A DNA stretch of 64,000 nucleotides from Treponema sp. J25 (GCF_004343725.1 NZ_PTQW01000010.1:62001-126000); one strand, 5' to 3'; positions 6,829 to 60,900 are shown, numbered from the stretch's first letter. The notes: generated by a model from the letters alone, not told the origin. Numbers and translations are program-made.

Positions 6829-6852
6829 TATCACAGCATCATGAGGTTGACA

Positions 6853-9800
6853 ATGGAAACCTATCCTTTTCGCGATCCCACCTTGCCGCTGGAAGAACGT
6901 CTTGCGGATCTTATGAAACGGCTCACGATAGAAGAAAAGCTTGCCCTTCTTCCTACCCAGCAGGCTGCCATCGAACGACTGGGTATCCCGGAGTATCACA
7001 TCGGAGCGGAAGGGGCCCATGGTTTTGTAGATCGAGAAGGGGTTTCCACCACCTTCCCTCAAACCATTGGTCTTGCCTGTAGCTGGGATCGGAGGCTGTT
7101 TCGAGAAATCGGAAAGGTTATTGGAGAAGAAGCCCGAGCTTACTTTAAAAAAAGTGGGAAAGGAGGACTTTCCCTCTGGTTCCCCACCATAGATATGGAA
7201 CGACATCCCCGTTGGGGGCGCACCGAGGAGGGCTACGGGGAAGACCCCTACTTAACCGGAGAACTGGCCGCTGAAATCATCCGGGGTGCCCAGGGGGAAG
7301 ATCCTTTTTACCTTCAGGTATCCTGTGCGCCTAAGCATTTTTTTGCTAACAATAACGAAAAGAATCGGGGGAGCTGTTCCTGTTCGGTAGATCCCCGCAA
7401 TATGTATGAGTACTATCTACCTGCCTTTGAGAAGGCCTTTCTCAAAGGGGACGCCTATTCCTTGATGACCGCCTATAACGAGGTGAACGGTATCCCCATG
7501 ATGATCCATCCCCTGGTGCGAGACCTTGTAAAAAACACCTGGGGACTTGAAGGCAAAGGTCATGTAGTCACCGATGGGGCCGATGTACGCTGTACGGTTC
7601 TCCTCCATCATTATTTTGAAACCCACGCACAAACTATTGCGGCGGCCTTAAAAAACGGGGTGGATACTATGACCGATGATCCTGCTCTGGTAATTCCCGC
7701 TGCCCGGGAGGCTCTGCAACAGGGATTGATGAGCGAAGCTGAACTGGACCGGGCCGTGGCGGCAAGCCTGCGAGTACGATTCCGTTTCGGCCATTTTGAT
7801 CCTCCCGGTATCTGTCCCTATGATCAACCTGTTGAAGAGGGCCCTGAAAGCCCTCGGAAAAGGGCTCTTGCCCGGCGGGCTGTGCAGGAATCGGTGGTAT
7901 TGTTAAAGAACGGTGTACCAGTAGAGGGACCCCAAAGGCCTCTTTTGCCATTAGATCTTTCTTCACCTATCCCATCGGGGAAAGGGGCAAAAATAGCCCT
8001 TATCGGGCCCCTTATAGATCACGTATATAGCGATTGGTATAGCGGCAATCCTCCCTATCGGGTGTCGGTGATGGATGCCCTTCGTCCGCTCGTAGAAGAT
8101 CAGTGGGGAAAAGAGGGGTTTATCTGCGAAAGAGCTTTAGACGAAGTATGCTTTACCACCATGGATGGCCGGCCCCTGGTGATAGATGGGGATGGGAACC
8201 TTCGGATTGGAAAGGTTCCCCCGGAGACTCCCGCCGCAGTTTTTGTCCGGGAAGATTGGGGCTGGGGAGCAAATACCCTCTATAGCCCTGAACGACAGCG
8301 CTACCTCGAAACAAAGGAGTCCTTTGACGTGTCACGTCAGCCAGCAGAAGGAGAGGACCTTTGGGGTGAAGGAAAAGGCTATGGAGATAGTCCCCTTAAA
8401 GTAACTGCTTCTACGACGTTAAATTGGTTTATTACCACCCTCTATAATCTGGTACCCGCACATATTGCTTCAAGGCGAGAAAGAAGTGGTATCGCAGAGC
8501 TCACAAAGGACGGCCCTTTTCAGCATGAAGCGATGCAGGAGCCAAAAGATGGGGGGACCGAACAGCAAAGGGCAAGGAAATTTGCTTTCTCCGAATGGAG
8601 AAAAACAGATACCATTGTGGGTTCCCCTTTCATCGAGAAAAACTGTGCCCTGTACCGGGAAGGTCCGGCGTTCCTCCGAACCTGGAATAGTAAGACCCTT
8701 CGTATTGATAAGGAAGGGAACTTTCACCTTGAACGGTTTTGTACCGAGCCTACGCCACTTATGATGCATCTTCTGCGGGATGGTATTGAAAAGGCGGTTG
8801 AAGCGGCAAAAGGGGCTGAAACGGTTATTCTCTGTCTGGGTAATAATCCAGTTATTAATGGAAAAGAAGAGGTCGATCGGCCCAGTTTGCGATTACCACC
8901 CTATCAGTCGGCCCTGCTTAAGGCGGTGCTGGCTGCAAATCCTCGGACGGTAGTGGTCCTAATGGCAAGTTATCCCTTTATGCTGGATGAGGAAGAGCGG
9001 GCAGCGCCGGCTATCGTGTATCTTGCCCATGGCTTACAGGAACTGGGAAATGGTCTTGTGGATGTGCTCGTGGGAAGGGTGAGCCCCGCGGGTCGGCTCC
9101 CCTTAACCTGGTACGAACGGGAAGAGGGGCTACCGGATATCATGGAATATGACATTATCCGTTCGGGCCTTACCTATCAGTATACTCGGCGACCTGTGCT
9201 CTTTCCCTTTGGTCATGGCCTTTCCTATAGTCGCTTTACCTATAAGGATCTTCGCTGTTCTTCCCCCCGTCTTGCCCCCGGCGCAGAGGTATCCATTCGT
9301 TGTACCGTGGTAAACGAGGGGCCTCTGCCGGCCGACGAGGTAGTTCAATTCTATGTAGCGTTTTATGGTTCGAAGGCCCCCCGTCCTTTGCGAAGCTTGA
9401 AGGGTTTTGAACGACTACACCTTAGGGTGGGCGAAGCTCGCCCGGTGGAATTTCGTTTGCGAGCCGAGGACCTGGCCATCTGGGATGTGCGGCAGGGTCG
9501 GTTCTGGGTGGAGCCGGGCCGGGCGAGCATCATGATCGGGGCCTCTTCCGAGGATATTCGTCTTTCCACGGAGATTGAAATACTGGGGGAAAGCCTGCCC
9601 CCCCGCTGCGCCGACTCTATTGAGGCCTGGAGCTACGACTCTTATCAGTGGTGTTATCTCCATGAAAAGCGGGGTGAACCTATACCGGCGGTGTTTGGAA
9701 CGACTAAAAGACAAGAGAAACTCCATGGGGGGGCAGCGTATGGTGTTGTAAATGGGGAGCATCCTCAGAAGAGTAAGACCCCTTTCCAGGGACAGGGGCT

Positions 9801-10188
9801 GCGAGCCCCCGGGGAGGGAAAAAACGATAGGAACGGAAGTGCCCAGGATATTCTTGAATCGGTCCTCTGGGTTCTTTACCGGGAAATAGATTTTGAGGGG
9901 GGAAAAACCGTTATTGAGGTTACTGCCGCGGCAGGGCCCGGAACTACTCTCGAACTTTATCTTGATAGTCTGGAAGGGCCTCCCCATGCAGTCCTTCCCC
10001 TTCCGACGACTACAGATATCTGTGCGATCCCCGATGCCCCCCAGCGGCCTGATCTTGTGTGGGCTACCCTGGCTTTCCCTATTGCACCGATTGAAGGTAT
10101 CCACGACCTGTACCTGGTATTTCGGGGGAATCTGGCCCTTCATCGGTTTAGGTTTGGCCCTACAGCTTCGGCGTCGGTTGCAACATAA
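6853..10188 (+). CDS. Large family GH3 beta-glycosidase with internal insert and C-terminal extension
   Basis: A cytoplasmic-looking GH3 enzyme of about 1111 residues, far longer than the usual 700-850. The N-terminal barrel covers about residues 1-320, with SLWFPTIDMERHPRWGRTEE, CAPKHFFANN and nucleophile candidate Asp in GHVVTDGADV. The second lobe begins at IALIGPLIDH but is interrupted for about 250 residues (part reading EDWGWGANTLYSPERQRYLE) before resuming at ETVILCLGNNPV. A fibronectin III-like domain (ADEVVQFYVAF, PLRSLKGFERL) follows, then about 190 residues I cannot assign. No signal peptide is seen. I chose the ATG at 6853 because GAGG (6843-6846) sits 6 bases before it; the in-frame ATG at 6841 has no ribosome site. 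Likely substrate is beta-glucosides or xylosides (family knowledge, not proven). Confidence 0.88.
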   Translation: METYPFRDPTLPLEERLADLMKRLTIEEKLALLPTQQAAIERLGIPEYHIGAEGAHGFVDREGVSTTFPQTIGLACSWDRRLFREIGKVIGEEARAYFKKSGKGGLSLWFPTIDMERHPRWGRTEEGYGEDPYLTGELAAEIIRGAQGEDPFYLQVSCAPKHFFANNNEKNRGSCSCSVDPRNMYEYYLPAFEKAFLKGDAYSLMTAYNEVNGIPMMIHPLVRDLVKNTWGLEGKGHVVTDGADVRCTVLLHHYFETHAQTIAAALKNGVDTMTDDPALVIPAAREALQQGLMSEAELDRAVAASLRVRFRFGHFDPPGICPYDQPVEEGPESPRKRALARRAVQESVVLLKNGVPVEGPQRPLLPLDLSSPIPSGKGAKIALIGPLIDHVYSDWYSGNPPYRVSVMDALRPLVEDQWGKEGFICERALDEVCFTTMDGRPLVIDGDGNLRIGKVPPETPAAVFVREDWGWGANTLYSPERQRYLETKESFDVSRQPAEGEDLWGEGKGYGDSPLKVTASTTLNWFITTLYNLVPAHIASRRERSGIAELTKDGPFQHEAMQEPKDGGTEQQRARKFAFSEWRKTDTIVGSPFIEKNCALYREGPAFLRTWNSKTLRIDKEGNFHLERFCTEPTPLMMHLLRDGIEKAVEAAKGAETVILCLGNNPVINGKEEVDRPSLRLPPYQSALLKAVLAANPRTVVVLMASYPFMLDEEERAAPAIVYLAHGLQELGNGLVDVLVGRVSPAGRLPLTWYEREEGLPDIMEYDIIRSGLTYQYTRRPVLFPFGHGLSYSRFTYKDLRCSSPRLAPGAEVSIRCTVVNEGPLPADEVVQFYVAFYGSKAPRPLRSLKGFERLHLRVGEARPVEFRLRAEDLAIWDVRQGRFWVEPGRASIMIGASSEDIRLSTEIEILGESLPPRCADSIEAWSYDSYQWCYLHEKRGEPIPAVFGTTKRQEKLHGGAAYGVVNGEHPQKSKTPFQGQGLRAPGEGKNDRNGSAQDILESVLWVLYREIDFEGGKTVIEVTAAAGPGTTLELYLDSLEGPPHAVLPLPTTTDICAIPDAPQRPDLVWATLAFPIAPIEGIHDLYLVFRGNLALHRFRFGPTASASVAT

Positions 10189-10482
10189 GCGGGAAGACCT
10201 ATTTTCTGTGCTCTTTGGGGTAGGAGTTTTCAGGAAGTGGTTCGTAATCCGAAAGGAGGGATCCCTAATTTCTCAAGGAAAAAACTTAAAAAAATGCGGT
10301 GGCCCCTTTTTCCCTCTCTTTTTACAATAAATGGTCACAGGGTAATCCGGGGCACGAAGGAAGAAGAATGTCCTGCCTTCCAGGTAGAGGTAGATTTTGT
10401 GGATGAAAAGAACCCTTCCTGCCCCGAATCCTCGACGTTTCTTAACCTTTACCAGAGAAGCACAAAGGAGGAGGTGTTTGCT
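10189..10482 (+). other. Leader region between the GH3 and GH74 genes
   Basis: About 294 bp with no gene I can support. The GH74 reading frame stays open upstream to 10237, but that stretch has no ribosome site or signal peptide and is treated as leader. A possible -10 (TACAAT, 10323-10328) is present without a convincing -35. GH74 may therefore have its own promoter as well as read-through from GH3. Confidence 0.4.
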
Positions 10483-13400
10483 ATGAAAAAAAAATTTTCC
10501 CTAATAGAAAGGGCTGTCCTTTGTATAGGCATCATAGGGGTTCTTGTAGGTTGCGCTTCGAGTGGAAGTCCCGCCGGTGGATCAAGTTCGGCGGCGGGCC
10601 CAAAAATCTGGAAGAATGTTTCCATCGTGGGTGGCGGTTTTGTCACCGGTATTATCTACAACACTAAACAGAAGGGCCTTGTCTATGCCCGTACCGATAT
10701 TGGGGGAGCTTACCGCTGGGATACCCAAAAAGAAGAGTGGATCCCCCTCACAGACTTTGCGGGAGTGGAAGACTGGGGGCGTCTTGGTATCGCCAGTCTT
10801 GCCACGGACCCGGTGGAACCCAATCGGCTTATTTTAGCCACAGGCATGTATACCAATGAGTGGGACCCCACCAATGGGGAAATGTTGATTTCGGAAGATT
10901 ACGGGAATACCTTTAAGCGGGTTCCCCTCCCGTTTAAGCTGGGGGCCAATATGCCAGGCCGGGGCATTGGGGAACGGCTTGCCATCGATCCAAACAACAA
11001 CAAAATTGTGTACTTTGGTTCATTCGGTAATGGCTTATGGCGGAGTTCCGATTATGGGTACACCTGGGAAGAGGTTACCTCCTTCCCTACCAGAGGAAAT
11101 GTGTACGATAAGGACTTTGAGACCTACTGTGGCGGCTTCCGGCATTTTCATGGGATTGGCTGGGTAGTGTTTGACCCCGCATCAGGAAAACCCGGCGAAG
11201 GGTCAAAACACATCTATGTGGGAGTGATGGATACGGGTGCTACCATTTACGAATCTACCGATGGAGGAGTCAGCTGGCATCCCCTTGCGGGCCAGCCCTA
11301 TGCGGAGGCCTACAAGCCGGGCGAAGCTCACGGTCATCTTTCTGAAAATTGTCCTTGCTACAAATACTATCCCATCAAGTGTACCTATTCTCCTGAGGGT
11401 GCCATGATTATCTCCTACAACGCCGGATTTGGCCCCTTTAGCTCGAGTTATCAGGGGGGGGCCATCTGGAAATATACCTTTGCCACTAAAACCTGGACCG
11501 ATATATCCCTGCCTAAGCATGATCACGACCCGAATCGCCGGACCGACGATCGGGGTGTGGGAAGCGTCGCCGTGGATTGGCAAAATCCCCAGGTGCTGGT
11601 GGCCTCTACTCTGAACGAATGGTGGCCCGATGAAGTATTGTATCGGAGTACCGATGGAGGAAAAACCTGGAACCCCATCTGGAGGATGACAACCTATCCG
11701 AACCGGGAAAACTACTATGAGCTCGACTACCGCCTGAGCCCCTGGATCGATTGGGGTACAGAGAAGGCCCTCCCCGAACAAAACCCCAAACTCGGTTGGA
11801 TGATCGTCGATATCGAAATCGATCCCTTTGACTCGAACAAGTTGCTCTATGTAACTGGGGCTACCATCTGGGGAAGTAAAAACCTTACCGATTGGGACAA
11901 GGGGAAAAAGGTAAAGATAGAAATCATGGCGAAGGGCATCGAAGAAACGGCGGTCCTTGACCTGATAAGTCCCCCAGAAGGGCCTCACCTGGTAAGTGGT
12001 ATGGGCGATATTGGAGGGTTTGTACACTGGGACCTGGCTAAAGCCCCCAACATGATTGTGGATCCCTACATTAGCGCCGTGAACAGCCTAGATTATGCGG
12101 GGCAAAAACCCTGGTTTATGGTGCGCATGGGGGACGGAAAGATGGGAATTAGTGATGATTACGGTCTAACGTGGAAACCGGCCCACAATTATATCGAAGG
12201 GGCCGATACGGGCTGGACTGGTTCTGTGGCGGTAGCCGCCGATGCATCGGTAATTCTCTGGGCCCCCGGTGGTAAGGATGTGCCGGTCTCATGGTCCGCC
12301 GATCGGGGGAAGACGTGGGTCCCCGCAAAGGGTATCCCTTCTAATGCCCGCCTTGCAGCTGATCGGGTGAATCCTGCCCGTTTCTATGCCTATCATGAGG
12401 GGGTTTTTTATGCCAGTACTGATGGGGCAAAGAGTTTTTCCGTGGTAAATACCCAGGTGTTTGCCGCAGGAAAGCGGGATGCGGCGGGGAAACTTCCCAA
12501 AAACGAAAAAGGGGAAGAACTCATGTCGGCTTCGGATTTTACTGCCGTTCTTGGACTGGAAGGACACCTGTGGTTTGCCGCAGGAAACCTGGGTCTTTTC
12601 CATAGTGTTGATGGAGGTAAAAATTGGGAAAGAATTCCCAATGTGGAAGCTGCTTCGGTAGTAGGTCTGGGTAAAGCAGCCCCCCGGGCTTCCTATCAGG
12701 CCCTGTACATTAATGGAAAAATAAAGGGAAAGTGGGGAATATACCAGTCGGACGATAAGGGAAAGAACTGGACTCGAATTAACGATGATCAGCATCAGTT
12801 CGGAGTTGCTAACACGGCGATTACCGGGGACCCCCGAATTTATGGGCGGGTATATCTGGCCACCAATGGGCGAGGAATTGTGTATACCGAGGGGGCTTCT
12901 ACAACCACGGGGGCCGAAACCCTGGCATGGGCGCAGGCAAAGATAGCCGAACGAACAAAGGCAGGGGGTGGTCCTGTTGAAGAACGGCCCGCCACCGATA
13001 ATGATTGTAATAGCCTCGCAGAAACCCTGGGACCCGTTAAACTGGTTATTGATCGGGACGTATCGATCCCCAGTGAACCCCCTTTAACGGGGGCCACCGC
13101 CACTGTAGTAGAGTTCGATGGACAAAAGGCCCTTAAGGTGACGGCTAACTCTAAAGGGGAAGTTCGCTTTGCCTATGTGCTTGAAAAACCCATCACCCTG
13201 GAAAACCTGGTGTATCTATCCTGGAAGATTGGCGGTTTTTACGGGGGAGAGGGAAACTATAACTGTGCCCTTATCTATAATGAAGGGGATGCTAAGGGGC
13301 GGCTTGTTTCATTCTATCTGGGTAAGATAGATAAAAATAAGTTGGTGGCGGTAAAGAACAACATCCGGGCCCATGAACAGTGGACTAAGAATTTTAAGAA

Positions 13401-13491
13401 AACCCGGGAGTTGTACGCCATTCAGTTCTGGACCGATAACCCCGCCAAGGTGCTCTATATCACTGACCTTTCGTTAAAGCCTGCTGAGTAA
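10483..13491 (+). CDS. GH74 xyloglucanase-like surface lipoprotein
   Basis: A 1002-residue exported enzyme. The start at 10483 is set by AAAGGAGG just upstream and by a lipoprotein signal (hydrophobic segment then LVGC), so it is probably anchored on the outer surface. The GH74 double seven-blade propeller is shown by YARTDIGGAYRWD near the N-terminus, which carries the family general base Asp, MGDIGGFVHWD in the middle, which carries the acid Asp, and about nine Asp-box repeats (for example STDGGVSWHP, SVDGGKNWERI, SDDKGKNWTRI). The last 140 residues form a separate beta-rich module, perhaps carbohydrate binding. GH74 enzymes cleave xyloglucan or related beta-1,4-glucans. With GH3 upstream it forms a degrade-and-import locus. 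A strong terminator follows. Confidence 0.92.
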   Translation: MKKKFSLIERAVLCIGIIGVLVGCASSGSPAGGSSSAAGPKIWKNVSIVGGGFVTGIIYNTKQKGLVYARTDIGGAYRWDTQKEEWIPLTDFAGVEDWGRLGIASLATDPVEPNRLILATGMYTNEWDPTNGEMLISEDYGNTFKRVPLPFKLGANMPGRGIGERLAIDPNNNKIVYFGSFGNGLWRSSDYGYTWEEVTSFPTRGNVYDKDFETYCGGFRHFHGIGWVVFDPASGKPGEGSKHIYVGVMDTGATIYESTDGGVSWHPLAGQPYAEAYKPGEAHGHLSENCPCYKYYPIKCTYSPEGAMIISYNAGFGPFSSSYQGGAIWKYTFATKTWTDISLPKHDHDPNRRTDDRGVGSVAVDWQNPQVLVASTLNEWWPDEVLYRSTDGGKTWNPIWRMTTYPNRENYYELDYRLSPWIDWGTEKALPEQNPKLGWMIVDIEIDPFDSNKLLYVTGATIWGSKNLTDWDKGKKVKIEIMAKGIEETAVLDLISPPEGPHLVSGMGDIGGFVHWDLAKAPNMIVDPYISAVNSLDYAGQKPWFMVRMGDGKMGISDDYGLTWKPAHNYIEGADTGWTGSVAVAADASVILWAPGGKDVPVSWSADRGKTWVPAKGIPSNARLAADRVNPARFYAYHEGVFYASTDGAKSFSVVNTQVFAAGKRDAAGKLPKNEKGEELMSASDFTAVLGLEGHLWFAAGNLGLFHSVDGGKNWERIPNVEAASVVGLGKAAPRASYQALYINGKIKGKWGIYQSDDKGKNWTRINDDQHQFGVANTAITGDPRIYGRVYLATNGRGIVYTEGASTTTGAETLAWAQAKIAERTKAGGGPVEERPATDNDCNSLAETLGPVKLVIDRDVSIPSEPPLTGATATVVEFDGQKALKVTANSKGEVRFAYVLEKPITLENLVYLSWKIGGFYGGEGNYNCALIYNEGDAKGRLVSFYLGKIDKNKLVAVKNNIRAHEQWTKNFKKTRELYAIQFWTDNPAKVLYITDLSLKPAE

Positions 13492-30100: not shown

Positions 30101-30131
30101 ACTGGGGATATCATCGTATGTGGAGGATGTT

Positions 30132-30608
30132 ATGAAGCGAAGTTTCTTAATAGCTCTGGCGGTGCTCATCCTTATGGTAAGCCCTGTCGCACTCTTTGCG
30201 GCGGGACCCGGTGGTATGACCGGTCTGGGGGTCTACGGCAGTTTTGGGTCCACCGGCGGTATTTCCAGTGGAGGCGTAGGGCTTTCCCTGAAATTTTCGA
30301 GTTTCCCCGTCATAGGTTTAAAGTATGATTTTACCGCAAGCCGCTTTAATACTTCGATCGATTATTACGTGATTGATGCGGAAGGTTTAGGATCCAATTT
30401 TAGTTATTTCCTTGGGGTCGGGGGCTATTTTGGCATTGCCGGTGGAAATCAAGCGCAGTTTGATTTTGGACTCCGGATGCCCCTGGGTCTTCAGTTCTGG
30501 CCGATTAAAAAGTTTGAAATTTTCCTTTCTCCCCTCTTAGCAGTTCCCCTTTATCCTACGCCGAATGTGGGATTTGGGGTTGAACTGGGTGCCCGTATTC
30601 GATTCTAA
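30132..30608 (+). CDS. Small outer-membrane beta-barrel protein
   Basis: A 158-residue exported protein. The start at 30132 follows GGAGG (30122-30126) by 5 bases, and a clean signal peptide (MKRSFLIALAVLILMVSPVA, then LFAAG) follows. The mature part is Gly-rich with alternating strands (GVYGSFGSTGGISSGGVGLS, FGLRMPLGLQFW, GFGVELGARIRF) and ends in Phe, the pattern of an eight-stranded outer-membrane barrel. Similar small barrels are common in Borrelia and Treponema; I cannot name the family with certainty. A good promoter precedes it and the Nudix gene follows 43 bp later. Confidence 0.7.
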   Translation: MKRSFLIALAVLILMVSPVALFAAGPGGMTGLGVYGSFGSTGGISSGGVGLSLKFSSFPVIGLKYDFTASRFNTSIDYYVIDAEGLGSNFSYFLGVGGYFGIAGGNQAQFDFGLRMPLGLQFWPIKKFEIFLSPLLAVPLYPTPNVGFGVELGARIRF

Positions 30609-31334: not shown

Positions 31335-33407
31335 ATGCGGGCCTCTTATCTAAAAAAGATGATTCTGGGGTATGCCATTTTAATGATGGTTTCCGCTACG
31401 GTAGGATCGGATGATTTTGTTGTTTCTGTGACACCCCTTCTTTCAATTCCTGTGGGTCCCTCTATTGAAGGTGAAAATTTACAACTCTTTTCTGTAGGGG
31501 GAGGGGTGGGGATAAAGGGAGATTTCATCCCTTCCTTTGCTCCTTTCTTGTATGGGAGACTTTCAGGAGAAATGTGGCTTAGCCCTTTGAATAAGGCAGA
31601 TAGTAGCCTGACTTTTATTTTTGGAGGGGGCAACGGTGGCCTTTATTATAACATCCTTCCATGGCTTGCAGTAAAAATGGGAGGCGGTGGGGGAATGTAC
31701 CTTGCCCTTTCTGATTTTGGGATGGTACGGAATCCCTACGCAGAAGGAGGTCTAGAACTTGATTTTCGTTTAGGCCCTGCCCTTACCCTGCGGTTGGGAG
31801 GAACGTACAAATATTTGTTTACCCCCACTGTTCCTTTGTACGAAGGTTTTACTGCGCAGGTGGGGATCTCCTATGATTTAAAGGGTTCTAAAAAAGGAAG
31901 GGACCTCCAGATAGATCATACCTTAAAACCTGTTTTTCCTCTTTTTTATTCCCATTACGATAAAAACCCTATAGGAGAAATCATCCTCATAAACAAGGAA
32001 ACGCTTCCCTTGGAAAAAGTAAAAGTCTCCTTTTATGTAAAACAGTACATGGATACCCCTCGTTCGTGTTCAGAGATAAAGATGCTACCGGCGGGAGGAA
32101 AGGAAAGGCTACCACTCTTTGCACTCTTTAACGATTCTATTTTTAAGGTTACGGAAGGTACAAAGGTCGCAGGGGAAATCATAGTGGAATACCTGTATAT
32201 AGGTAGTGAAAGAAAAATAGCTCTTCCTGTGACGGTGCAAATCTATAATCGCAATGCGCTTACCTGGGATGATGACCGAAAGGTGGCTGCGTTTATTACC
32301 GCTAAAGATCCCGTGGTGCAACGTTTTGCCAAGAATGTGATTGCCAGTACTCAGAAAGAAGTTTTTCCTATTATCTCTGAAAATTTTAGAAATGCTTTTG
32401 CCCTTTTTCAGGCCCTATCGGCCCATAATATGAGTTATTCGGTGGATCCCCAAACACCGTATCATGCCTATTCGAATACCGAAGAAAAAATAGATTACTT
32501 GCAATTTCCTGTTCAAACGTTAGCCTATCGGGCAGGCGATTGTGATGATCTCTCGGTATTGTATGCATCGCTTCTTGAATCAGTAGGAATTCCCACCGCC
32601 CTTATTACCATTCCAGGTCATATATATGTGGCTTTTGATTGTGGCCTGTCTCCGGAAAAGGCAGAAAAACTTTTTGATATTCAAAATGACGTACTCATTC
32701 GTGATAATACGGTATGGATTCCTGTAGAAATCACTCTCATAAAGGAAGGTTTTGTACGTTCCTGGCGCATAGGGCTACAAGAGTGGGCGGAAGCAAAACA
32801 AGCGGGTACTGAGGGGTTCTATCTCGTACGGGATGCATGGAAAATATATGAACCGATAGGCTTCTTAGAAGGAAGCACGGCTATTCCCTTCCCTTCCTCC
32901 GAGGAGGTTGTAGAAAAATGTAAAAAGGAAGTTTTAAGGTTTTTCGAGATGTACGTAAAAGAAAGGGTCCTTGTTATCCAGAAAGAAGGGGAGCGGTCAA
33001 AGCTGCAAGCAGAACAAATTGCTAATCGCAAGGGAATTGTGTATGCCCAATTTGGGTTCCTGGATAAAGCGATAGAACAATTTAAATTAGCATCTCAAAA
33101 GGGAAACTATCCGCCGGCTCTGACGAATTTAGGAAATGTTATGTATTTAAAAGGGGATATGGAAGGGGCTTTACAGCAATACCAGGCGGCTCTCAGGGTA
33201 ATGCCCGATTCTGTTCCTGCCTTGCTGGGGGCTGCTCGGTGTTTTTACAGTTTAGGGGCCCTTTCTCAGACAAATGAAATTATTTCAAAAATAAAAAAAA
33301 TAAATCCCAATCTATCGCTTTCTGTTGAGTTAGCGGATGCGACGGTACCTAAGATTCGTGCTTCGGAATCTTTTAATGCTATGGAGGGGCAACTATGGGA
33401 CGAATAA
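31335..33407 (+). CDS. Envelope protein: barrel-like N-terminus, transglutaminase-like domain, TPR
   Basis: A 690-residue exported protein (signal MRASYLKKMILGYAILMMVS, then ATVGSDD). Residues about 25-190 are Gly-rich alternating strands like an outer-membrane barrel (FSVGGGVGIKGDFIPSF, VKMGGGGGMYLAL). A beta-rich middle follows. Residues about 380-450 are transglutaminase-like: YRAGDCDDLSVLYASLLESV with the Cys, then ITIPGHIYVAFD with the His and Asp. The C-terminal 130 residues hold TPR repeats (GIVYAQFGFLDKAIEQFKLA, LGNVMYLKGDMEGALQQYQA). The gene overlaps the next by 13 bp and starts a three-gene envelope operon. I know no named family with this order. Peptidase or cross-linking activity is only inferred. 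Confidence 0.75.
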   Translation: MRASYLKKMILGYAILMMVSATVGSDDFVVSVTPLLSIPVGPSIEGENLQLFSVGGGVGIKGDFIPSFAPFLYGRLSGEMWLSPLNKADSSLTFIFGGGNGGLYYNILPWLAVKMGGGGGMYLALSDFGMVRNPYAEGGLELDFRLGPALTLRLGGTYKYLFTPTVPLYEGFTAQVGISYDLKGSKKGRDLQIDHTLKPVFPLFYSHYDKNPIGEIILINKETLPLEKVKVSFYVKQYMDTPRSCSEIKMLPAGGKERLPLFALFNDSIFKVTEGTKVAGEIIVEYLYIGSERKIALPVTVQIYNRNALTWDDDRKVAAFITAKDPVVQRFAKNVIASTQKEVFPIISENFRNAFALFQALSAHNMSYSVDPQTPYHAYSNTEEKIDYLQFPVQTLAYRAGDCDDLSVLYASLLESVGIPTALITIPGHIYVAFDCGLSPEKAEKLFDIQNDVLIRDNTVWIPVEITLIKEGFVRSWRIGLQEWAEAKQAGTEGFYLVRDAWKIYEPIGFLEGSTAIPFPSSEEVVEKCKKEVLRFFEMYVKERVLVIQKEGERSKLQAEQIANRKGIVYAQFGFLDKAIEQFKLASQKGNYPPALTNLGNVMYLKGDMEGALQQYQAALRVMPDSVPALLGAARCFYSLGALSQTNEIISKIKKINPNLSLSVELADATVPKIRASESFNAMEGQLWDE

Positions 33408-35221
33408 AATATTGGTCCTTGGTGGTTGGTTTGGAAGTATGGGGCGCGCTCATTCTGTTAGGATCCTGTATGGACAGCGCGGTGGATATTGTAAAGGCCG
33501 CCACGATAGAGGTGATGAAAGCCCATGATCGGTATCTCAAAGTTTTAAAGATATCTCCTGATGCGAATGAGCAAGGGGTAAATCCGGGATGTCGTATTCG
33601 AGTTGTTTTTGATAGACCCCTTGATATGGAATCGGTATCATCTTCTACGGTGGAAGTAACTAAAGGAAATTATGAAGCGGTTATCTGGAGTGGGACCTTC
33701 GATGTAAAGACCAATACCCTTGATATTAAGCCCCAGAGTCTTCTGACTGAAGCGTCCTCCTATTATGTAACCCTGAGGGGAATAAAAGGGACCGATGGAA
33801 GTTCCTTGCTCAGTGAAATATCCTGGTCTTTTACAACCGGGGTGGGCCCTTCGGGTCAAGTCAAGGTAAAAAGCAGTAACCTAGAGAGCACAGATGGCTT
33901 TACGAACACTACGGGAGTGCAGATTACTATTAGTAGCCCAAACAGCCTGGCTCAGGAATTTACGGTAGCGGGGACGGCGGATGCTCTGAGTAATCCTGAA
34001 ACTAATGCCGCTTCCTGGACATGGAAACAAATAACTGAAACATGGAATTTTACCTTAGCAGGACAGGAAGAAGGGCGCCAGTATGTGTATGTGATCCTGC
34101 GACGCCCTGAACCGCTTCAGTATAGTGCAATACTTATTGGAGATATTGTATATGATAAGACAGCGCCTTCAGCGCCCACGGTAAGTGGGATCACGCCGAC
34201 CAATAATAAGAAGCCTACCTGGACATGGTCGAGCGGTGGGGGAGGGGGCAGTGGAGTATATCGATATCAATTGGACTCCACCAGCGGGAGTTGGACTCAA
34301 ACAACAGCGCTCTCCTTTAGTCCTAGTACTGATTTGACAGATGGTAGTCATATTCTGTATGTACAAGAACGGGATGCGGCGGGAAACTGGTCGAACAGTG
34401 GATCAAAGACCGTAGTGGTGGACACAGTACCGCCCGCAGCGCCCACGGTAAGTGGGACTAGTCCGACCACGAACCGTCGGCCTACCTGGACATGGTCGAG
34501 CGGTGGCGGAGGAAATGGCCAGTTCCGGTATTATTTATATGCTCCCCTGACCCCCGAGGGATATTCTGCCTGGAGCAGCGGCACCTCTTATACTCCCTCT
34601 ACGGATTTAGCGGATGGCACATATACTGTGGGGGTGCAAGAAAAGGATGAGGCGGGGAATTTGTCTTCTATGACTCTTAAGAGTATCAGCGTAAATGGGG
34701 TCCCCAATCCGCCAGTATTTACTGGCCCGGACACGGTAACCCTTTCCCAAACCCCCACCTGGTCCTGGCAATCCGGGGGATTCGGAATCGGGGTGTTCCG
34801 ATACTATTGGAATGGAAGCTGGTCGGCGGATACCACTGCCACCTCGTATACCCCTTCTACTCTGGCGGATGGCACCTATACCTTAGAGGTTAAAGAAAAG
34901 GATGCAAACGGGGACTGGTCCAGTACGAGCAGTCGGACGGTTGTGGTGACTTCCGTCATTCCCTATGATGGGCAAACGTACGTGAGTACGTTTAATTTAA
35001 CCCTTAAATGGCGAGGGATTGCAGTTGGATACACCTATACCATTCAAATATACGATAACAGTAGTAGTAGTTGGATTAGTTTGGGAAGTACCACCAATAC
35101 GTATTATCCGGTAGACTTTACTTCGAATACTTTGTATTGCTGGAGAGTCAAAGCTACAAAAGTGGGAACCGTCACTTATATTCCAAGTGAGACGGGAGCT
35201 AAATTCTGGACTGGTAAATGA
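33395..35221 (+). CDS. Lipoprotein with SbsA-type Ig domain and three Ig-like repeats
   Basis: A 608-residue predicted lipoprotein: hydrophobic N-terminus ending LLGSC. Residues about 45-150 match a bacterial Ig-like (Big_5/SbsA) domain (GVNPGCRIRVVFDRPLDMES, SYYVTLRGIKGTDG, SWSFTTG). Three related modules of about 85-90 residues follow, each with a PTWTWSSGG-like strand, a TPSTDLADGTYTVGVQEKD-like strand and a VVVD-like end. The C-terminus looks fibronectin III-like. Ig modules suggest an adhesive or scaffold surface protein. The gene overlaps both neighbours (13 bp and 4 bp), so the three proteins are made together. The first two repeats are nearly the same at DNA level. Confidence 0.8.
   Translation: MGRIKYWSLVVGLEVWGALILLGSCMDSAVDIVKAATIEVMKAHDRYLKVLKISPDANEQGVNPGCRIRVVFDRPLDMESVSSSTVEVTKGNYEAVIWSGTFDVKTNTLDIKPQSLLTEASSYYVTLRGIKGTDGSSLLSEISWSFTTGVGPSGQVKVKSSNLESTDGFTNTTGVQITISSPNSLAQEFTVAGTADALSNPETNAASWTWKQITETWNFTLAGQEEGRQYVYVILRRPEPLQYSAILIGDIVYDKTAPSAPTVSGITPTNNKKPTWTWSSGGGGGSGVYRYQLDSTSGSWTQTTALSFSPSTDLTDGSHILYVQERDAAGNWSNSGSKTVVVDTVPPAAPTVSGTSPTTNRRPTWTWSSGGGGNGQFRYYLYAPLTPEGYSAWSSGTSYTPSTDLADGTYTVGVQEKDEAGNLSSMTLKSISVNGVPNPPVFTGPDTVTLSQTPTWSWQSGGFGIGVFRYYWNGSWSADTTATSYTPSTLADGTYTLEVKEKDANGDWSSTSSRTVVVTSVIPYDGQTYVSTFNLTLKWRGIAVGYTYTIQIYDNSSSSWISLGSTTNTYYPVDFTSNTLYCWRVKATKVGTVTYIPSETGAKFWTGK
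34170..34239 (+). repeat. Ig-module DNA repeat, copy 1 (70 bp)
   Basis: Shares long runs with 34437-34506: the CAGCGCCCACGGTAAGTGGG run and the CCTACCTGGACATGGTCGAG run. It marks recent duplication of the Ig-like module inside the lipoprotein gene. Confidence 0.8.
34437..34506 (+). repeat. Ig-module DNA repeat, copy 2 (70 bp)
   Basis: Second copy, 267 bp (89 codons) after copy 1 and in frame. The differing bases lie mainly in the short turn between the two conserved runs. Confidence 0.8.
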
Positions 35222-35247
35222 AAAAGTTTGCTCGAAAGGAGGCCGGA

Positions 35248-36198
35248 ATGGGAATAAAAAAACTCTTCTTCCTGGTAGGGTTTATGGGTTTCTTCCCCGT
35301 GCTCATGTTCCTCACGGCGCAACAAGGGGTGGAGATCGTATGGGTCGAAGGAAAGGTTGAAGAACAGCAACAAGGAAACAAATGGACCTTTATAGAAGAA
35401 GGCACCACCGTACTTCCTACGGCGATTCTGAGGCTTTCCAGGGATACCCTGGTGGAACTTCGGTATGGACCTCTTCATATGAGGTTACGAAAACCCGGTG
35501 TATATAATCTGGCGGAGATTATTAGTTCCACTCGGGAAGCTCAGAAAAATTCTACGGGCCCTGGGATGATGGTGGAAAAGATTGCTCGACTTGTAGGAAA
35601 AGATACGACTTCTCCCGTTATTACTACCACCGCAGGCGCCAGAGGAGCAAGCGCGCAAGATAGTTCTCTCCTTGAAACAATGTGTTGGGATGAAGGAGAA
35701 AGAACAGAGGGTATAAAGGAAAAAGAAGATCCTTTCTTGTATATCCTTTCCCTTTATGCAGAAGGGGATTATCCTGCCGTAGTCAAAGGCGCCCAAGCAA
35801 TAAAACAAAGGGGAACGGTTTCCCCGGAAGAGGTGTTTCGTGCTACCTATTGGGAAGCGGTGGCGTTGTATGCCCAGGATCTCCTTTTGCCGGCCTTGCG
35901 GGTATTAGAAAATACGCCGTTTTATTCAAATGTGCCTGAATACGGCCCCGCTGTCTTTTTAAAGGCCCGCTTGTATATGGATATGACTGACTGGTCTCAA
36001 GCTTTAGGGTGTTTGCAGCAGTATGAGGGGGTAAATATATCTGTGAGGGATCGACAGGCCGCCTTGTTTTTACAGGCCCTTTGCTATGAAGGATTGGCGA
36101 AAAAAGGGGAGGCTAAAAAGGTATTGGAAATAGCCCAGGCCCTCGATCCAAACAGTGATGTGGGGCAGGAGATATCTGCTTATCTAAAGAGGATGTAA
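35248..36198 (+). CDS. FecR-like and TPR exported protein
   Basis: About 316 residues. I chose ATG 35248 because AAAGGAGG lies 5 bases before it and a signal peptide follows at once (MGIKKLFFLVGFMGFFPVLM). The ATG at 35218, overlapping the previous stop, is also in frame and would add 10 residues. Residues about 25-100 resemble a FecR domain (EIVWVEGKVEEQQQGN, TTVLPTAILRLSRDTLVELR). A linker follows, then about 170 residues of TPR-like helices (YWEAVALYAQDLLLPALRVL, ALCYEGLAKKGEAKKVLEIA). FecR-like domains bind or present surface partners in other bacteria. It closes the three-gene envelope operon, and a GC hairpin follows. Confidence 0.75.
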   Translation: MGIKKLFFLVGFMGFFPVLMFLTAQQGVEIVWVEGKVEEQQQGNKWTFIEEGTTVLPTAILRLSRDTLVELRYGPLHMRLRKPGVYNLAEIISSTREAQKNSTGPGMMVEKIARLVGKDTTSPVITTTAGARGASAQDSSLLETMCWDEGERTEGIKEKEDPFLYILSLYAEGDYPAVVKGAQAIKQRGTVSPEEVFRATYWEAVALYAQDLLLPALRVLENTPFYSNVPEYGPAVFLKARLYMDMTDWSQALGCLQQYEGVNISVRDRQAALFLQALCYEGLAKKGEAKKVLEIAQALDPNSDVGQEISAYLKRM

Positions 36199-46347: not shown

Positions 46348-47213
46348 TGCAACTCCTTTTAGAACTGGGAATTGCCAGTACCCCTCTGTTTCTAGCTGCC
46401 CTGGGGGCCCTGGTAACTGATTGTAGCGGTACCCTGGGAATCTTCCTTGAAGGAAGTGTTACGATGGGGGCCTATCTTTCATATGTGCTGGGGGTGTACA
46501 GTGGTTCTTCCTGGGGGGCGATAATAATACCGGCCCTTGCGGGGGGGCTTGTCGGGGGGGCTCTGGGATGGTTTGTTACGGTTACCGGGGCAAATCCCTT
46601 TGTGGCTGCCCTGGCAATGAATATGCTGATAGGGGCCTATGTTTCTCATAGTGAGGCCCTTTTGTTTGGAAGCCGCGGGGTCTTACAGGATTCTCGGTTC
46701 TCAGTCCTTGCTCTGGTGAGGGACAAGACGCTGTATACCAGCCTAAGTATGGGGTTTGCCCTGCTTACGGCCCTTGTCTTGTGGTATGCCCTCTATAGGA
46801 CTCCCTGGGGCTTACGGCTCCGGTGCAGCGGCAGAAGCCTTGAAGCGGCGAGGCTCAAGGGTATACGGCCAGAAGGATATCGGATTTCTGCCTGGGCCAT
46901 AGGGTCTGCCCTGGCGGCGGCTGCCGGAAGCCTTATCACCCTCCGATTAGGGGCCTTTGTACCCGGTAGTACTACCGGGAGGGGCTGGATTGCCCTGGTG
47001 CTCATCTTCCTGGGGTTTAAGAAGATTGGAGGAGTTCTGGTAGGAACCTTTCTTTTTTCTCTTCTTGAGCGTATAGGGTTTGCCTCTCAAGCCCGCCTGC
47101 ATATACCCGCCACAATTCTTCTGGGACTTCCTTTCTTTTTGGCTCTTATGTTATATACTGTAAGCCAGGTAATCCAGAGGAAACAGTGGCGCCACCATGA
47201 CCGTTCAACATGA
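46344..47213 (+). CDS. rfuD: Riboflavin ABC transporter permease RfuD
   Basis: A 289-residue membrane permease, sister of RfuC. I chose ATG 46344 because GGAGGT (46330-46335) precedes it by 8 bases and it gives an ATGA overlap with rfuC; ATG 46314 is in frame but deeper in rfuC. Motifs include FLAALGALVTDCSGTLGIFL and the loop RCSGRSLEAARLKGIRPEGY, with the late GRGWIALVLIFLGFKKIGG typical of BMP permeases. It overlaps the next gene by 17 bp. Confidence 0.9.
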   Translation: MMQLLLELGIASTPLFLAALGALVTDCSGTLGIFLEGSVTMGAYLSYVLGVYSGSSWGAIIIPALAGGLVGGALGWFVTVTGANPFVAALAMNMLIGAYVSHSEALLFGSRGVLQDSRFSVLALVRDKTLYTSLSMGFALLTALVLWYALYRTPWGLRLRCSGRSLEAARLKGIRPEGYRISAWAIGSALAAAAGSLITLRLGAFVPGSTTGRGWIALVLIFLGFKKIGGVLVGTFLFSLLERIGFASQARLHIPATILLGLPFFLALMLYTVSQVIQRKQWRHHDRST

Positions 47214-49497
47214 TATCGATCTTTTTTTTGAAGTCTCTATCGGCTACCTTTCCATTATTACGCGGGAGGGCCATTTCCTTAAGGTCAGTCGCTCCTGGAG
47301 TGTTTCTCTGGGGTGGCCGGAACATGAACTCATTGGTCGGCCTATTCAGGATTTTATTCATCCCGAAGACCGAGAACGGGGGCTCCGTTCCTGGAATCTT
47401 TTAATCAGTGGTATTCCCCTTAAGGACATCCACCTCCGTTTTAGGCGGGCCGATGGGGCCTGGCTCTGGCTTTCGGTTTCGGCGGTGTTGGTGCCCGACA
47501 GTGATGCCATCATCCTTTCTGCCTTTGATATTACCCAGCAACGGGAAATAGAAGAGCATCTCCGGCAGGCCCGCCAGGAGGCGGAACGGGCCAACAAAGC
47601 AAAAAGTCAGTTTATCGCCACCATGAGCCATGAGCTACGAACTCCCTTGAATGCGGTGTTGGGGTATGCCCAGCTTCTGGGAACCTATGTATCCAGTGAA
47701 GAGGGTAAGCGGTATCTCCAATCGATTGAAAGTTCCGGTAAGGCCCTGCTGGCCCTTATTAACGATATCCTTGATTTGAGCAGGGCCGAGTCGGGACGAA
47801 TAGAACTGCTTCCCATCCCCTTTGAAATTCGGGGCCTGGTGGAAGAACTGGAGCACATCTTTCGCCTGCAGGCGGAAGAGAAAAATCTCCTGGTGGAGTT
47901 TCAAGTTACCCCGGAGGTGCCCCGCACGGTTCTCCTTGATCAGGCTCGTCTTAGGCAAATCCTGGTCAACCTTATCGGGAACGCCCTTAAATTTACCGAC
48001 GAAGGGTCAGTGCGCCTTCTTTTAGATGCCGTGGCGGAAGAGGGGGCCGAAATGCCTGAACAAAAAAGCTATAAGTCGACCCTCGTTATTAAAGTAATTG
48101 ATACTGGAATCGGTGTCTCTGAGGAGGCCCGTTCGAAAATATTTGATCCCTTTACCCAACAGGATCCTTCAATTTATAGAAAATATGGGGGGACAGGGCT
48201 GGGGCTTGCCATCGTTAAACGTCTGCTGGATCTCATGGGTGGTACCATTTATTGTGAATCGAACGAACCCCGGGGAAGTCGGTTTATTGTTCGGATTCCC
48301 CGGGTTTCTTCGGCAGGAAGAGGAGAAGGCCTGCTTATATCCTTTGGGAAAGGTCCTCAGGAGCGAGTTGCGGTCCCCTCAGAACTCCCCTTACCCCAGC
48401 CGGTATCGGTTCAAAGGGGTAAGAAAAAGTCTGAATCGCTCCAAGGGAGGAGAAAGTCCTCCCTTGCCCAGCGCTTGTCTGAAAAGGAGAAAGAAACAGA
48501 AAATCTCATTGTCCTGGTTACCGATGATGCTGCCTGGGCCCGGTCCATTGAGCAGAAGTTAGAAAAGCTCAAGGCCCGATATTTAGGGGTTCCCTTTGCT
48601 TCAATCCACTTTTATCCTATTCAATCGGTACAGGGAATTATAGTGGATTTTCGAGATATGGGATGTTATTCGGGAGACCTCCATCGCCTTTTTAGAAAAT
48701 GGGTAGAAGGGTATCGGCTTCCCTGTGTGGTCGTCACGATCCCGGCTTATCAGGAACGGTTTATTCACGCCCTCCAGGATGGAAAAATCGATCTGGTTCT
48801 GGAACCGGTCCAGGGGGAAGAACTTCTCTTTCGGTTTAAAAATCAGATGGAGCTTAAAATGAACCGTCTCCGTTTAACGGCGGTCCATCGTAGCCTGGCC
48901 GAAACCACCGCCCGATTGATGCGGCTTTCTTCGACGGTGGATCTGCTTTCGTCGGTGGATACCCTTACGGGCCTGTGTAATCGGCATTCCCTCTGGGAAA
49001 AACTGCTCCTCTCTTTACAAGACGCATCCCAACGGCAGGAACCGGTGGCGGTGTTCTTGTCCGATCTGGAGCATCTTAAAAATATCAACGACCGCCTGGG
49101 ACAACGGGCAGGAGATCTTGTCCTCAGTGAATGTGGCCGACGACTTTCCGCCCTTCTTCCGCCTCCCGCAATAGTAGGGCGCTGGAGTGGCGAAGAATTC
49201 ATGGTGATTCTTCCAGGGAAGACTCAAGAGTCTGCCCGGGCTCTTATTCAGGAAGTGGCCCATAAGATCCAGGACCCTCCTGTGTACTTTGATCATGTTC
49301 CTTTAGAATTTCATCTTGTGTTTGGTGGGGCGGTGACGATCCCCCAGATGAATGGAAATGAGCAAAGCCCGCAAACCTGGGAAACCCTGGCATCCTTCCT
49401 TGTTCGTACCGCCGATGACGCGGTGTTCCGGTCGAAAAATCGCGGCGGTACCACTATCGAATGTATTGAGACAGGCATAAGAGGAGCGTATAGTTAA
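47197..49497 (+). CDS. PAS histidine kinase fused to a GGDEF-like domain
   Basis: A 766-residue cytoplasmic signalling protein with no membrane helix. Order: PAS (residues about 10-125, SIITREGHFLKVSRSWSVSL); HisKA with the phospho-acceptor in FIATMSHELRTPLNAVLGY; ATPase domain with NLIGNALKFTDEG, DTGIGVSE and GGTGLGLAIVKRL; a degenerate receiver-like segment at about 435-545 (NLIVLVTDDAAWARSIEQKL) without an obvious phospho-Asp; then GGDEF with SSVDTLTGLCNRHSLW, LSDLEHLKNINDRLG and the altered active site RWSGEEFMVIL. SGEEF in place of GGEEF may lower or remove activity. It overlaps rfuD by 17 bp, so it belongs to the riboflavin operon transcript. Its PAS domain might bind flavin (inference). 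Confidence 0.88.
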   Translation: MTVQHDIDLFFEVSIGYLSIITREGHFLKVSRSWSVSLGWPEHELIGRPIQDFIHPEDRERGLRSWNLLISGIPLKDIHLRFRRADGAWLWLSVSAVLVPDSDAIILSAFDITQQREIEEHLRQARQEAERANKAKSQFIATMSHELRTPLNAVLGYAQLLGTYVSSEEGKRYLQSIESSGKALLALINDILDLSRAESGRIELLPIPFEIRGLVEELEHIFRLQAEEKNLLVEFQVTPEVPRTVLLDQARLRQILVNLIGNALKFTDEGSVRLLLDAVAEEGAEMPEQKSYKSTLVIKVIDTGIGVSEEARSKIFDPFTQQDPSIYRKYGGTGLGLAIVKRLLDLMGGTIYCESNEPRGSRFIVRIPRVSSAGRGEGLLISFGKGPQERVAVPSELPLPQPVSVQRGKKKSESLQGRRKSSLAQRLSEKEKETENLIVLVTDDAAWARSIEQKLEKLKARYLGVPFASIHFYPIQSVQGIIVDFRDMGCYSGDLHRLFRKWVEGYRLPCVVVTIPAYQERFIHALQDGKIDLVLEPVQGEELLFRFKNQMELKMNRLRLTAVHRSLAETTARLMRLSSTVDLLSSVDTLTGLCNRHSLWEKLLLSLQDASQRQEPVAVFLSDLEHLKNINDRLGQRAGDLVLSECGRRLSALLPPPAIVGRWSGEEFMVILPGKTQESARALIQEVAHKIQDPPVYFDHVPLEFHLVFGGAVTIPQMNGNEQSPQTWETLASFLVRTADDAVFRSKNRGGTTIECIETGIRGAYS

Positions 49498-57940: not shown

Positions 57941-60900
57941 CTAGGGATTAAAGCGGAACCAGCCGAAGTCAAAGGATGAGCCGGGCAAAAACACGAAGGA
58001 AAGGTTTAGCTTTTTCCCCCGAAAACTTGACGGCAGTTCTGCAAGGGGGAAGGTCTCTTCCCCATAGTCTTGGGTATGGGTAAATTCTACCAGTTGAACC
58101 GCTGTTTCTAAACCATCGCTGAACCGCAGATGAATGCTGTTTTTATCGGTCCGGGAACGGCCATAGATGGTGATGGACCGGGGAAGGGTTTCCTCAAAAA
58201 GAAGCTCCGTAAAGGTGATGGTAACGTTGTTGCCTATTTCTTCGATGCCCTGTTCGGCAAGGCGGAAACTATCTCCGTAGAGTTCGTCGTAGTCCAGAGC
58301 GCGTATAGTGGTAAAGGTGCGGTTCTGTTTTTCAAACACGAAGCCCTTGATGTGCATCTTCGCGGTGGTAACAAAATACAGGGATTGGAGTCCCCGAAGG
58401 CGTCGCTTTAACCGGTAGGTTTCTTCCTGATACACATTCCAGATGCTCTTTTTCTGGTATACCAGGTCCCCCAATAGGGTGCTCCCCGGTTTTTGTGGGT
58501 GTCCATCCCATACTTCAAGATGATAGGCTTCGTCATTCAACGTAAAGATTGGCAACATAATGGTATCTGAACCGTGGGAACCAAAATCAAGGTCCCTGTA
58601 GCCGACGATGGTCATGCTGTCCCGGGCGGTGGCAATCCCCTGTTCGTTACCCGGCCCCAGGTCTCCGTTTGAATCATCATAGAGGCCCGCCGAAATGAAC
58701 TGGTACGGGTCCTTGTGGAGGTTCCCGAATCCCCGGGCGGTAAATTCCAGTTGGGAGATAAGGCGCACCGTGTTAGTCCCGTTGGTGCTCATACATCGAA
58801 CCCGGAACTCCCCATCTCCCCGGGGACGGACTATGGCCCGGTTCCCCTGGGGGTCTATCTTGGCCAGGGGGGTCTCGATACCGCTTGCGGTAACCACCGA
58901 CCAGGAAAGGTCCTGGTAACTCGTGTTTGCCGGGTACAGGCGGGCTTCCAGGGTAGCCTCTGGACTCTCAGGTGTGAGATTCTGGTTCCCGTCCAAGAGC
59001 AGTAGTTCAATTTTCCTGAGGGGAATTTCCTCTTCATTTCCCGTATGAATGGGCCGGGGGCTGTTCCGTGCTATGACGTTGTAATGACAAAGGTCTTGCT
59101 TTTCTGAGGGAACGGCGGTAAGGGTAATAGTGGCCGCCTCTAATCCAGGACTATGCACCCTAATGGTAAGGGGGCCTACTTCCTTGGTGGCTCCCACTAG
59201 GGCCATAAGTTTGCCATTAAAAAGACGGCGACTGGTGCCTTTGTAGGAGTCGTAATCGGTGCTGTCCCCATTATCAAGTCCGATGAGTCGACCCGCACCG
59301 GTCACTTCCACCATTACCCGGTTGCTGGCATTTTCTACAGGGTTGCCTGCGGCATCTTCCATGCTGATGGTGACAAACAGGAGGTCTCTGCCGTCTGCTT
59401 CAAGATACGGTTTAGAAGGAGAAAGGATTATTCGGGCGGGATCCCCAAAGGAACGACGGACGGCCCTTGCGATACATCGACCTGTTTCATCATATGCCAG
59501 GGCTACCAGTTCTCCCGGTTCGTAGGGGATTTTCCATGTGGCTACCTGATCCGTTCCCTGGTGGTGGTCTATATCCTTAGTTCCGATACATCGGCCGTTA
59601 CAATACAGGGCAATCCGGGGCGCATTGGAACAGACCCGGACATCGATGAGTTGTCCCGGATTCCAGTCCCAGTAGGGGAATATGTGGATCATCGGTGCCC
59701 TTTTGTAATCGGTCCATGCGGCTTGATAAATATAGTAGGAATCTTTAGGAAAGGCGGCCGTGTCAATCTGCCCAAAGTAGGAATTCTTAGTGTGATAGGG
59801 AGTGGGTTCGCCGATATAATCAAAGCCGCTCCAGATAAACATCCCCAGGGAAAAGGGCGTATCCCGGTCAGCGGCGATACAGGCTTCGTGGGAACGGGCT
59901 CCCCAACTGGTGGGGCTATTCCCCAGGGCAGAACACTGCTGGTCTACCTCAGCGAGGATGGTGCATTCATAGGGGAAGTGATACACCCCCCTGCTTTGAA
60001 CCACCGAGGCGGTTTCACTGCCATAGATTACCCAGTGGGGGTACCTGCGGTGGTGTTCCTGGTAGTATTTTTCCGCATAGTTATACCCCGCGTAGGTAAG
60101 AATATCCGCACACTTTTGGGCATTTTCCCAGGGCATAAAATTAGAACCAATGGTAACCGGCGCATTCCCTTTGGGATCGTGACGGCGAACCTCCTGTAAC
60201 AAGAGCCAGGTGAGTTCCTGTCCCCGTTGGTCTGCGTGGGTATCGTAAATTTCATTACCGATACTCCACATCAAAAGACTCGGATGGTTCCGATCCCGGC
60301 GAATCCAGCTTGCCACGTCTTTTGCGTACCACTGAGGGAAAAACCGGGCGTAGTCGTAGGAAGTTTTGGGGCGTTCCCACATGTCAAAGGCTTCTGAAAG
60401 GATAAAAAAGCCCATTTCATCGGCCAGGTCCATCAGGGCCGGGGCACACATGTTGTGGGCAGTCCGGATGGCGTTTACCCCCATCTTTTTAAGGAGGCCC
60501 AGGCGATACCGCATAGCTTCTTTATTAAAGGCTGCCCCCAGAGCGCCCAGGTCATGGTGTTCGCAGGTACCATGGAGTTTTAAGGGAACCCCGTTTACAA
60601 AAAGCCCTTTTTCGGGGTCAAAGTTCAAAGTTCGGAAACCGATGGAATTTCGCTGTACTTCGATACACTGGCCGGTACTATCTAATAGGCGCGTTTCCAG
60701 GGTATACAGGTGGGGAGTATCGGGGCTCCAGAGAAGGGGATTCTGGACCCGGAATTGTTGGGTATCCCGATTCATCAGGGGCAGGAGGGGCCGTTTGCTG
60801 GTAGCAATACACTTTCCCTGATACGAGAGTCGATGTTCCAGTTCCAGGTTTGACTGAGGGGACCCTTCTCTTTCTGCAAAGATGGCGGTTTCTTCCTGTT

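Follow-up and report, generated by a model that had tools for sequence, protein, structure and literature searches.

Three overlapping open reading frames on the plus strand lie near the middle of the window, by which is meant the whole 64,000-nucleotide stretch of Treponema sp. J25 DNA analysed. Gene A (31335..33407) encodes 690 amino acids, with barrel, Ig-like, transglutaminase (TG)-like and TPR parts and an acidic W-x-E tail. Gene B (33395..35221) encodes an Ig-repeat lipoprotein of 608 amino acids, and gene C (35218..36198) a protein of 326 amino acids with a signal peptide, an unassigned beta-rich domain and, at the C-terminus, a TPR. The ORFs and a direct reading of the sequence confirmed the overlaps of 13 bp between A and B (33395..33407, unstranded) and of 4 bp, ATGA, between B and C (35218..35221, unstranded) on which a preliminary description of the locus had based a three-gene envelope operon. 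The A/B overlap reads CT ATG GGA CGA ATAA, where A ends in W-D-E-stop and B starts with M-G-R-I.

The neighbours of the trio are functionally unrelated: arginase-family, NUDIX, Cys/Met-metabolism PLP enzyme, homoserine O-succinyltransferase and GGDEF genes. Scans for promoters and terminators near the operon gave results no better than shuffles. Upstream of A, with the NUDIX gene in between, a small predicted outer-membrane barrel protein with a weak DUF3996 match is encoded at 30120-30608. Elsewhere in the window, a hybrid sensor protein with PAS, HisKA/HATPase and a C-terminal GGDEF is found at 47197-49497, and the regions 6841-13491 and 57941-61444 encode glycoside hydrolase family 3 with CBM6, a protein with a BNR/sortilin-like propeller and one of glycoside hydrolase family 2. 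Together these genes are signs of a carbohydrate-degrading habit.

Gene C had been described as FecR-like with TPR. The TPR was matched in Pfam, weakly, and the FecR identity found no support: Pfam scans of C and its relatives gave no FecR match at E<=1, and PF04773 matched only other genes of the J25 genome. Homologues of C are few. In two order-level relatives (G056 and G047) the orthologues, 37-39% identical, are near an ABC transporter cluster and far from A, and a C-like gene of G055 overlaps the ORF before it by 4 bp, so C-like genes join other operons. No A-B-C set was found elsewhere, an outcome named beforehand as speaking against the trio, and clustering of the neighbours in 113 loci revealed no recurring third partner beyond species-level synteny. 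A conserved three-gene operon was rejected for the position of C away from A in other genomes. C appears from these comparisons to be a local addition or accessory outside the conserved module, and the conserved unit consists of genes A and B, not the trio. The surface machine of the preliminary description is retained in this reduced form, as A and B co-occur across many spirochaete lineages.

Predicted architecture of the gene A product

The gene A product starts with a signal peptide. Its AlphaFold2 model, from an alignment of 30 relatives, had a mean pLDDT of 85.9, and the structure models of A were built from 25-30 sequences. Residues 28-181 (31416..31877, plus strand) are predicted by AlphaFold2 to form an eight-stranded outer-membrane beta-barrel, which aligned with OmpA, NspA and OmpW at Z 17-19 in VIA-align. 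The last barrel strand has the pattern G-x-x-Y/F-x-L/F, with conserved G177, aromatic residue 180 and L/F182, and resembles the BAM beta-signal. An even-stranded barrel with both ends inside leaves the remainder of a protein in the periplasm. From the even strand number of the barrel, the Ig-like, TG-like and TPR parts of A are therefore predicted to be periplasmic.

These parts follow on the same strand as an Ig-like beta-sandwich (residues 191-310, 31905..32264; AlphaFold2 and fold matches), a TG-like cysteine hydrolase domain (residues 314-505, 32274..32849; fold matches and a Transglut_core match near the cut-off) and a helical linker with TPR (residues 522-665, 32898..33329; Pfam, AlphaFold2 and VIA-align). 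The barrel, TG-like and TPR composition first proposed for A was thereby confirmed, with TPR and Transglut_core as sequence matches and the barrel, Ig-like and TG folds in the AlphaFold2 model. The C-terminal tail is conserved as well, and 102 of 123 members have a Trp within the last ten residues, mostly as W-acidic.

The first VIA-align run was dominated by TPR and barrel rows, and the Ig-TG core was then folded and searched separately. The core alone was modelled by AlphaFold2 with a pLDDT of 85.8 and matched a putative Bacteroidota protease (3kd4; Z 10.0, rmsd 2.8, 131 residues), PNGase (Z 9.4), a Cytophaga cysteine protease (3isr; Z 9.3), transglutaminase 3 (Z 9.0) and LapG (Z 8.8); factor XIII was also among the TG-fold matches. 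The Ig part aligned with the last domain of transglutaminases and of protein 4.2. Transglut_core scored 22.6 bits in hmmscan against a cut-off of 23, and 26.4 bits, over the cut-off, in the genome search. The fold matches, together with Transglut_core matches in 19 of the 30 aligned members, support the assignment of the domain to the TG/papain-type cysteine hydrolases, at Z values (8.6-10 for the set) that are moderate for a mixed domain. Structure prediction, named beforehand as a check of the TG-like fold, bears it out.

Distribution and active site of the A family

Judged by sequence, A represents a protein family of the Spirochaetota. Homologues occur in many relatives, often in several copies per genome, and the J25 genome has one. 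A scan of one genome per species gave 268 A loci, obtained with a contig search pattern that accepted Cys or Ser at the site, so dead copies with Ser could be included. The best 80 of the 268 were nearly all from spirochaetes and mostly from environmental MAGs; the only strain among them is Candidatus Marispirochaeta associata JC231, which carries the A-B pair (L085), and a single Pseudodesulfovibrio bin with A is probably mis-binned. In an even draw of the phylum the A core was present in 19 of 149 members. It was not found in the genomes of family f3 that were searched, one of them of 1.1 Mb, and the family was likewise not found in the class-level genomes of 1.0-1.5 Mb searched. The nearest relatives of J25's A are in another family of the order, and its own family has divergent forms only. 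The GC content of A is 0.43 versus 0.51 for the window, and horizontal transfer of A is possible.

Family conservation predicts Cys403 (32541..32543) and His429 (32619..32621) to be catalytic and places Glu465 (32727..32729, all plus strand) as the third residue of the triad. The Cys and His previously noted in A thus stand, and the Asp is replaced by this family-conserved Glu. The three residues were intact in 115 of the 126 members with an aligned site and were all lost in the other 11, with no intermediates (n = 0). The 11 triad-less members form one clade (support 1.0), and every one of their genes is directly followed on the same strand by an intact paralogue. Ten of these intact partners are in the tree, where they form a second clade together with four more intact members (support 0.93). 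These sequences are most simply read as an old pairing of pseudoenzyme and enzyme. Tandem dead and live copies with matching tree topologies are seen in L044, L049, L057, L043, L042, L148 and others.

In some relatives the barrel is exchanged for another N-terminal head. L113 has a WD40 propeller and L125 a TPR array in its place, and in neither does a lipoprotein gene follow A. In L101 a papain-family peptidase with a lectin-like domain takes the place of the barrel, and a B-type lipoprotein gene follows. From these WD40, TPR-array and papain-like heads, the TG-TPR part of A appears to be a module able to take other heads, and forms with a WD40 or TPR head apparently manage without B. L122 is also among the TG-TPR cores with other heads.

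Pairing with lipoproteins of conserved N-terminus

Intact A genes with enough downstream sequence (n = 105) were scored for a lipoprotein gene starting within -45 to +100 nt of A. By this fixed rule 74 of the 105, related loci not being independent, had such a gene directly after A. The number rose to 81 (approximately 77%) with seven pairs recognised by eye, including J25's own B, whose signal-peptide Glu fails the automatic rule. By nearly the same rule, 25 of 688 other genes in the A loci (3.6%) had a lipoprotein gene next. The loci were gathered by A only, so the statistic is not circular, and A and B are paired more often than by chance. About a quarter of the intact A genes have no lipoprotein gene directly behind.

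The commonest offsets of the B start relative to the A end were -13 and -4, with the 13-bp offset in 24 of 74 relatives and an overlap of any length in 52 of 74. The 13-bp overlap was rejected as a selected signal in itself: it arises from the conserved W-x-E-stop of A together with an adenine preceding TGG. Loci without B downstream retain the W-acidic tail too, and the overlap is therefore, as far as can be read from the sequences, mostly a by-product of the A tail.

The B protein of J25 has the lipobox LGS-Cys25, read from the sequence, which qualifies it as a lipoprotein, and Pfam matches to Big_5, Big_13 and Y_Y_Y agree with its earlier description as an Ig-repeat lipoprotein. The lipidated Cys25 and a conserved mature N-terminal segment defined by alignments, for which a docking role is suggested, occupy residues 25-52 (33467..33550). 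The Big_5 domain is at 33536..33838 and the Ig/Y_Y_Y repeats, the variable cargo part, are at 34199..34951, all on the plus strand by Pfam.

The B proteins have a mature N-terminus of the type C-x-N-P-L in common, of which the first ~25 residues are kept and the rest of the protein is exchanged. When 81 B proteins were aligned from the lipidated Cys, Asn was found at position +3 in 46, Pro at +4 in 36 and Leu, Ile or Val at +5 in 65; beyond these the sequences show a helix-like pattern with many E and V residues. The strict pattern C.[NSD][PSAN][LIV] was present in 39 of the 81 versus 2 of 52 other lipoproteins (p 9e-9), and both of these two adjoin an A gene. The helical hydrophobic moment of positions +5 to +18 was 0.378 versus 0.242 in shuffled sequences, and the strand moment was no different, which suggests that the segment is helix-like and amphipathic. 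No cleavage motif and no conserved Lys or Gln stands out in the shared segment.

The closer two A proteins are in identity, the more similar are residues +1 to +28 of their B proteins (Mantel r 0.35); the last 100 residues hardly track A identity (Mantel r 0.06). A profile of the window-type B N-terminus gave seven strong matches in 14 genomes, all immediately behind an A gene. The same search found no convincing unlinked copies, and the idea of orphan cargo was dropped. According to Pfam tallies, the cargo following the N-terminus comprises Big_5, Big_13, FG-GAP, InlB-like, NHL and other propellers, PKD, ASH/HYDIN-like, cadherin-like, fn3 and BNR domains. A subset of very large B proteins, of about 1850-1960 aa and starting with C-x-N/S-P-L...TPP-E-V-x-S-x-Y-P, is encoded in L109, L112, L130, L132, L136, L143, L144, L146, L147 and L150. 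The conserved N-terminus of B, its swappable cargo, the Glu of the triad and the pseudoenzyme clade were all absent from the preliminary description.

A proposed surface module and its relation to known systems

The computed folds, the conserved triad, the pairing of the genes, the N-terminal motif, the exchange of cargo and the pseudoenzyme clade may be combined into the following picture. A would be anchored in the outer membrane via its OmpA-like eight-strand barrel, and B would be a lipoprotein of the same membrane whose lipidated Cys leads straight into a short conserved amphipathic helix, with an exchangeable domain for adhesion or binding behind it. A would recognise B at this membrane-proximal helix, with the TPR as docking surface, and the Cys-His-Glu site would act on B near the helix. 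The most likely reaction would be that of a cysteine protease clipping, maturing or releasing B, as LapG does on LapA-type adhesins, given that LapG and other proteases are among the fold neighbours and that no Lys or Gln is conserved in the segment common to the B proteins. In a looser form, A would be a periplasmic partner that docks on the B helix and then processes, holds or aids the display of B.

A dedicated partner binding the B helix is suggested by the gene pairing, the cognate tracking of the N-terminus, the cargo exchange and the intact active site, and L101, which keeps its B gene although a papain-family peptidase replaces the barrel, is a further point in favour. Physical binding between A and B is likely and surface exposure of B is, with somewhat less assurance, probable. 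Proteolysis of B by A, rather than cross-linking or another reaction, is a tentative reading that falls a little short of even chances. For the whole proposal, a dedicated two-protein outer-membrane module in which A processes B at the membrane-proximal helix, the chances appear about equal either way. Against it stand the quarter of intact A genes with no lipoprotein gene directly behind, the WD40- and TPR-headed forms and the lack of an evident cleavage motif, and the conserved segment could be a signal for sorting or for the membrane with which A has no contact. The A-B modules look like an undescribed dedicated system for diverse cell-surface proteins of environmental spirochaetes; no paper describing the A family was found in the open-access literature, which is weak evidence of absence.

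Slam proteins combine an N-terminal TPR with a large C-terminal SlipAM barrel. A resembles them as an outer-membrane barrel and TPR protein encoded beside the lipoprotein that it would serve, but differs in having an N-terminal eight-strand barrel, Ig-like and TG-like domains and a C-terminal TPR, and in partner lipoproteins that have only the N-terminus in common. Approximately 52% of Slams adjoin a lipobox gene, and Slam cargo has a common TbpB-like fold (PMC5449769). A stands beside a lipoprotein gene in 81 of 105 cases against the 3.6% baseline, and Pfam scans covering A plus 29 relatives gave no SlipAM match. A could be a Slam-like helper that assists the flipping or assembly of its own lipoprotein at the cell surface, where the TG-like domain would serve for binding, as a chaperone or for trimming after export; the adjacency, the barrel and TPR within one protein, the surface-like cargo types and the maintenance of a catalytically dead paralogue clade all agree with this. 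We regard it as unlikely, since an eight-strand barrel is too narrow for protein export, SlipAM is missing and the triad intact in 115 of 126 members points to chemistry and not to docking alone.

Less likely still is a link between A and B that consists of regulation or neighbourhood inheritance only, with A acting on something else, such as peptidoglycan or the amide bonds of glycoproteins, as the fold match to PNGase and the relatives without B would allow. The B segment could in that case be a generic outer-membrane sorting signal, but other lipoproteins of the same loci are without the motif, and in the 14 genomes the window-type motif occurs only behind A and tracks the A phylogeny. The least probable is the original idea that A cross-links B, or B to peptidoglycan or to other surface proteins, by transamidation, which has in its favour the TG-like fold with its Cys-His pair and an Ig-like domain beside it as in true transglutaminases, and against it a cargo far from always Ig fibres, a shared segment without conserved Lys or Gln, a predicted topology that puts the enzyme in the periplasm and not at a surface fibre, and Glu in place of Asp. 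What is kept of the proposed machine for an Ig-repeat fibre is the TG-like enzyme, the TPR and a surface-type lipoprotein; Ig repeats are one cargo type among many, so that cross-linking of Ig fibres explains the module poorly in general.

LapG is a small soluble protease with a Cys-His-Asp triad that acts on type I-secreted substrates. The preferred reading, processing of B by A, is analogous to LapG and LapA in that a periplasmic TG/papain-like cysteine hydrolase would act close to where a large repeat adhesin is anchored in the membrane by its N-terminus. A differs from LapG (peptidase C93) by its barrel anchor, its Cys-His-Glu triad in place of Cys-His-Asp and its lipoprotein partner; it scored 13.9 bits with the NCBIfam LapG model (cut-off 320) and gave no Pfam match to peptidase C93. 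By analogy, A may work like a Slam or LapG, but it falls short of the defining tests of both and belongs to neither.

In Borrelia the LptD homologue BB0838 moves surface lipoproteins (reviewed in PMC13317210). It is likewise a spirochaete route for such proteins, but has an Lpt-type barrel and several substrates, and nothing in the domain content of A relates the two. That the A-B modules are a further spirochaete-specific route to make and control surface lipoproteins, in which the helix code, read by the membrane-anchored cysteine enzyme, makes any fused binding domain a client and, in an old branch, the dead enzyme copy tunes the live one, is a wider reading that we hold to be rather unlikely. 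Few machines are known for the arrival and control of lipoproteins at the diderm surface, above all in spirochaetes. The A-B module offers a specific enzyme, a specific recognition segment and a wealth of natural cargo swaps, with which docking, processing and display become directly testable, and if the B helix is a portable signal it would show how one enzyme may serve very different surface domains.

The N-terminal 260 residues of the anti-phage ProA model (NF058533) matched the Ig-TG core of A at residues 212-472 (31968-32750; E 1.6e-9). ProA is a protein of 1903 residues, and the A locus has no sign of a defence context. Phage defence was set aside, the match scoring 35.8 bits against a cut-off of 1500, with no PADLOC match and no description in literature searches. 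With the Transglutaminase-like superfamily (PF01841) A has both the sequence match and the TG/papain-type fold in common, as well as Cys and His, and it departs from the superfamily in the Glu for Asp and in the domain order barrel-Ig-TG-TPR.
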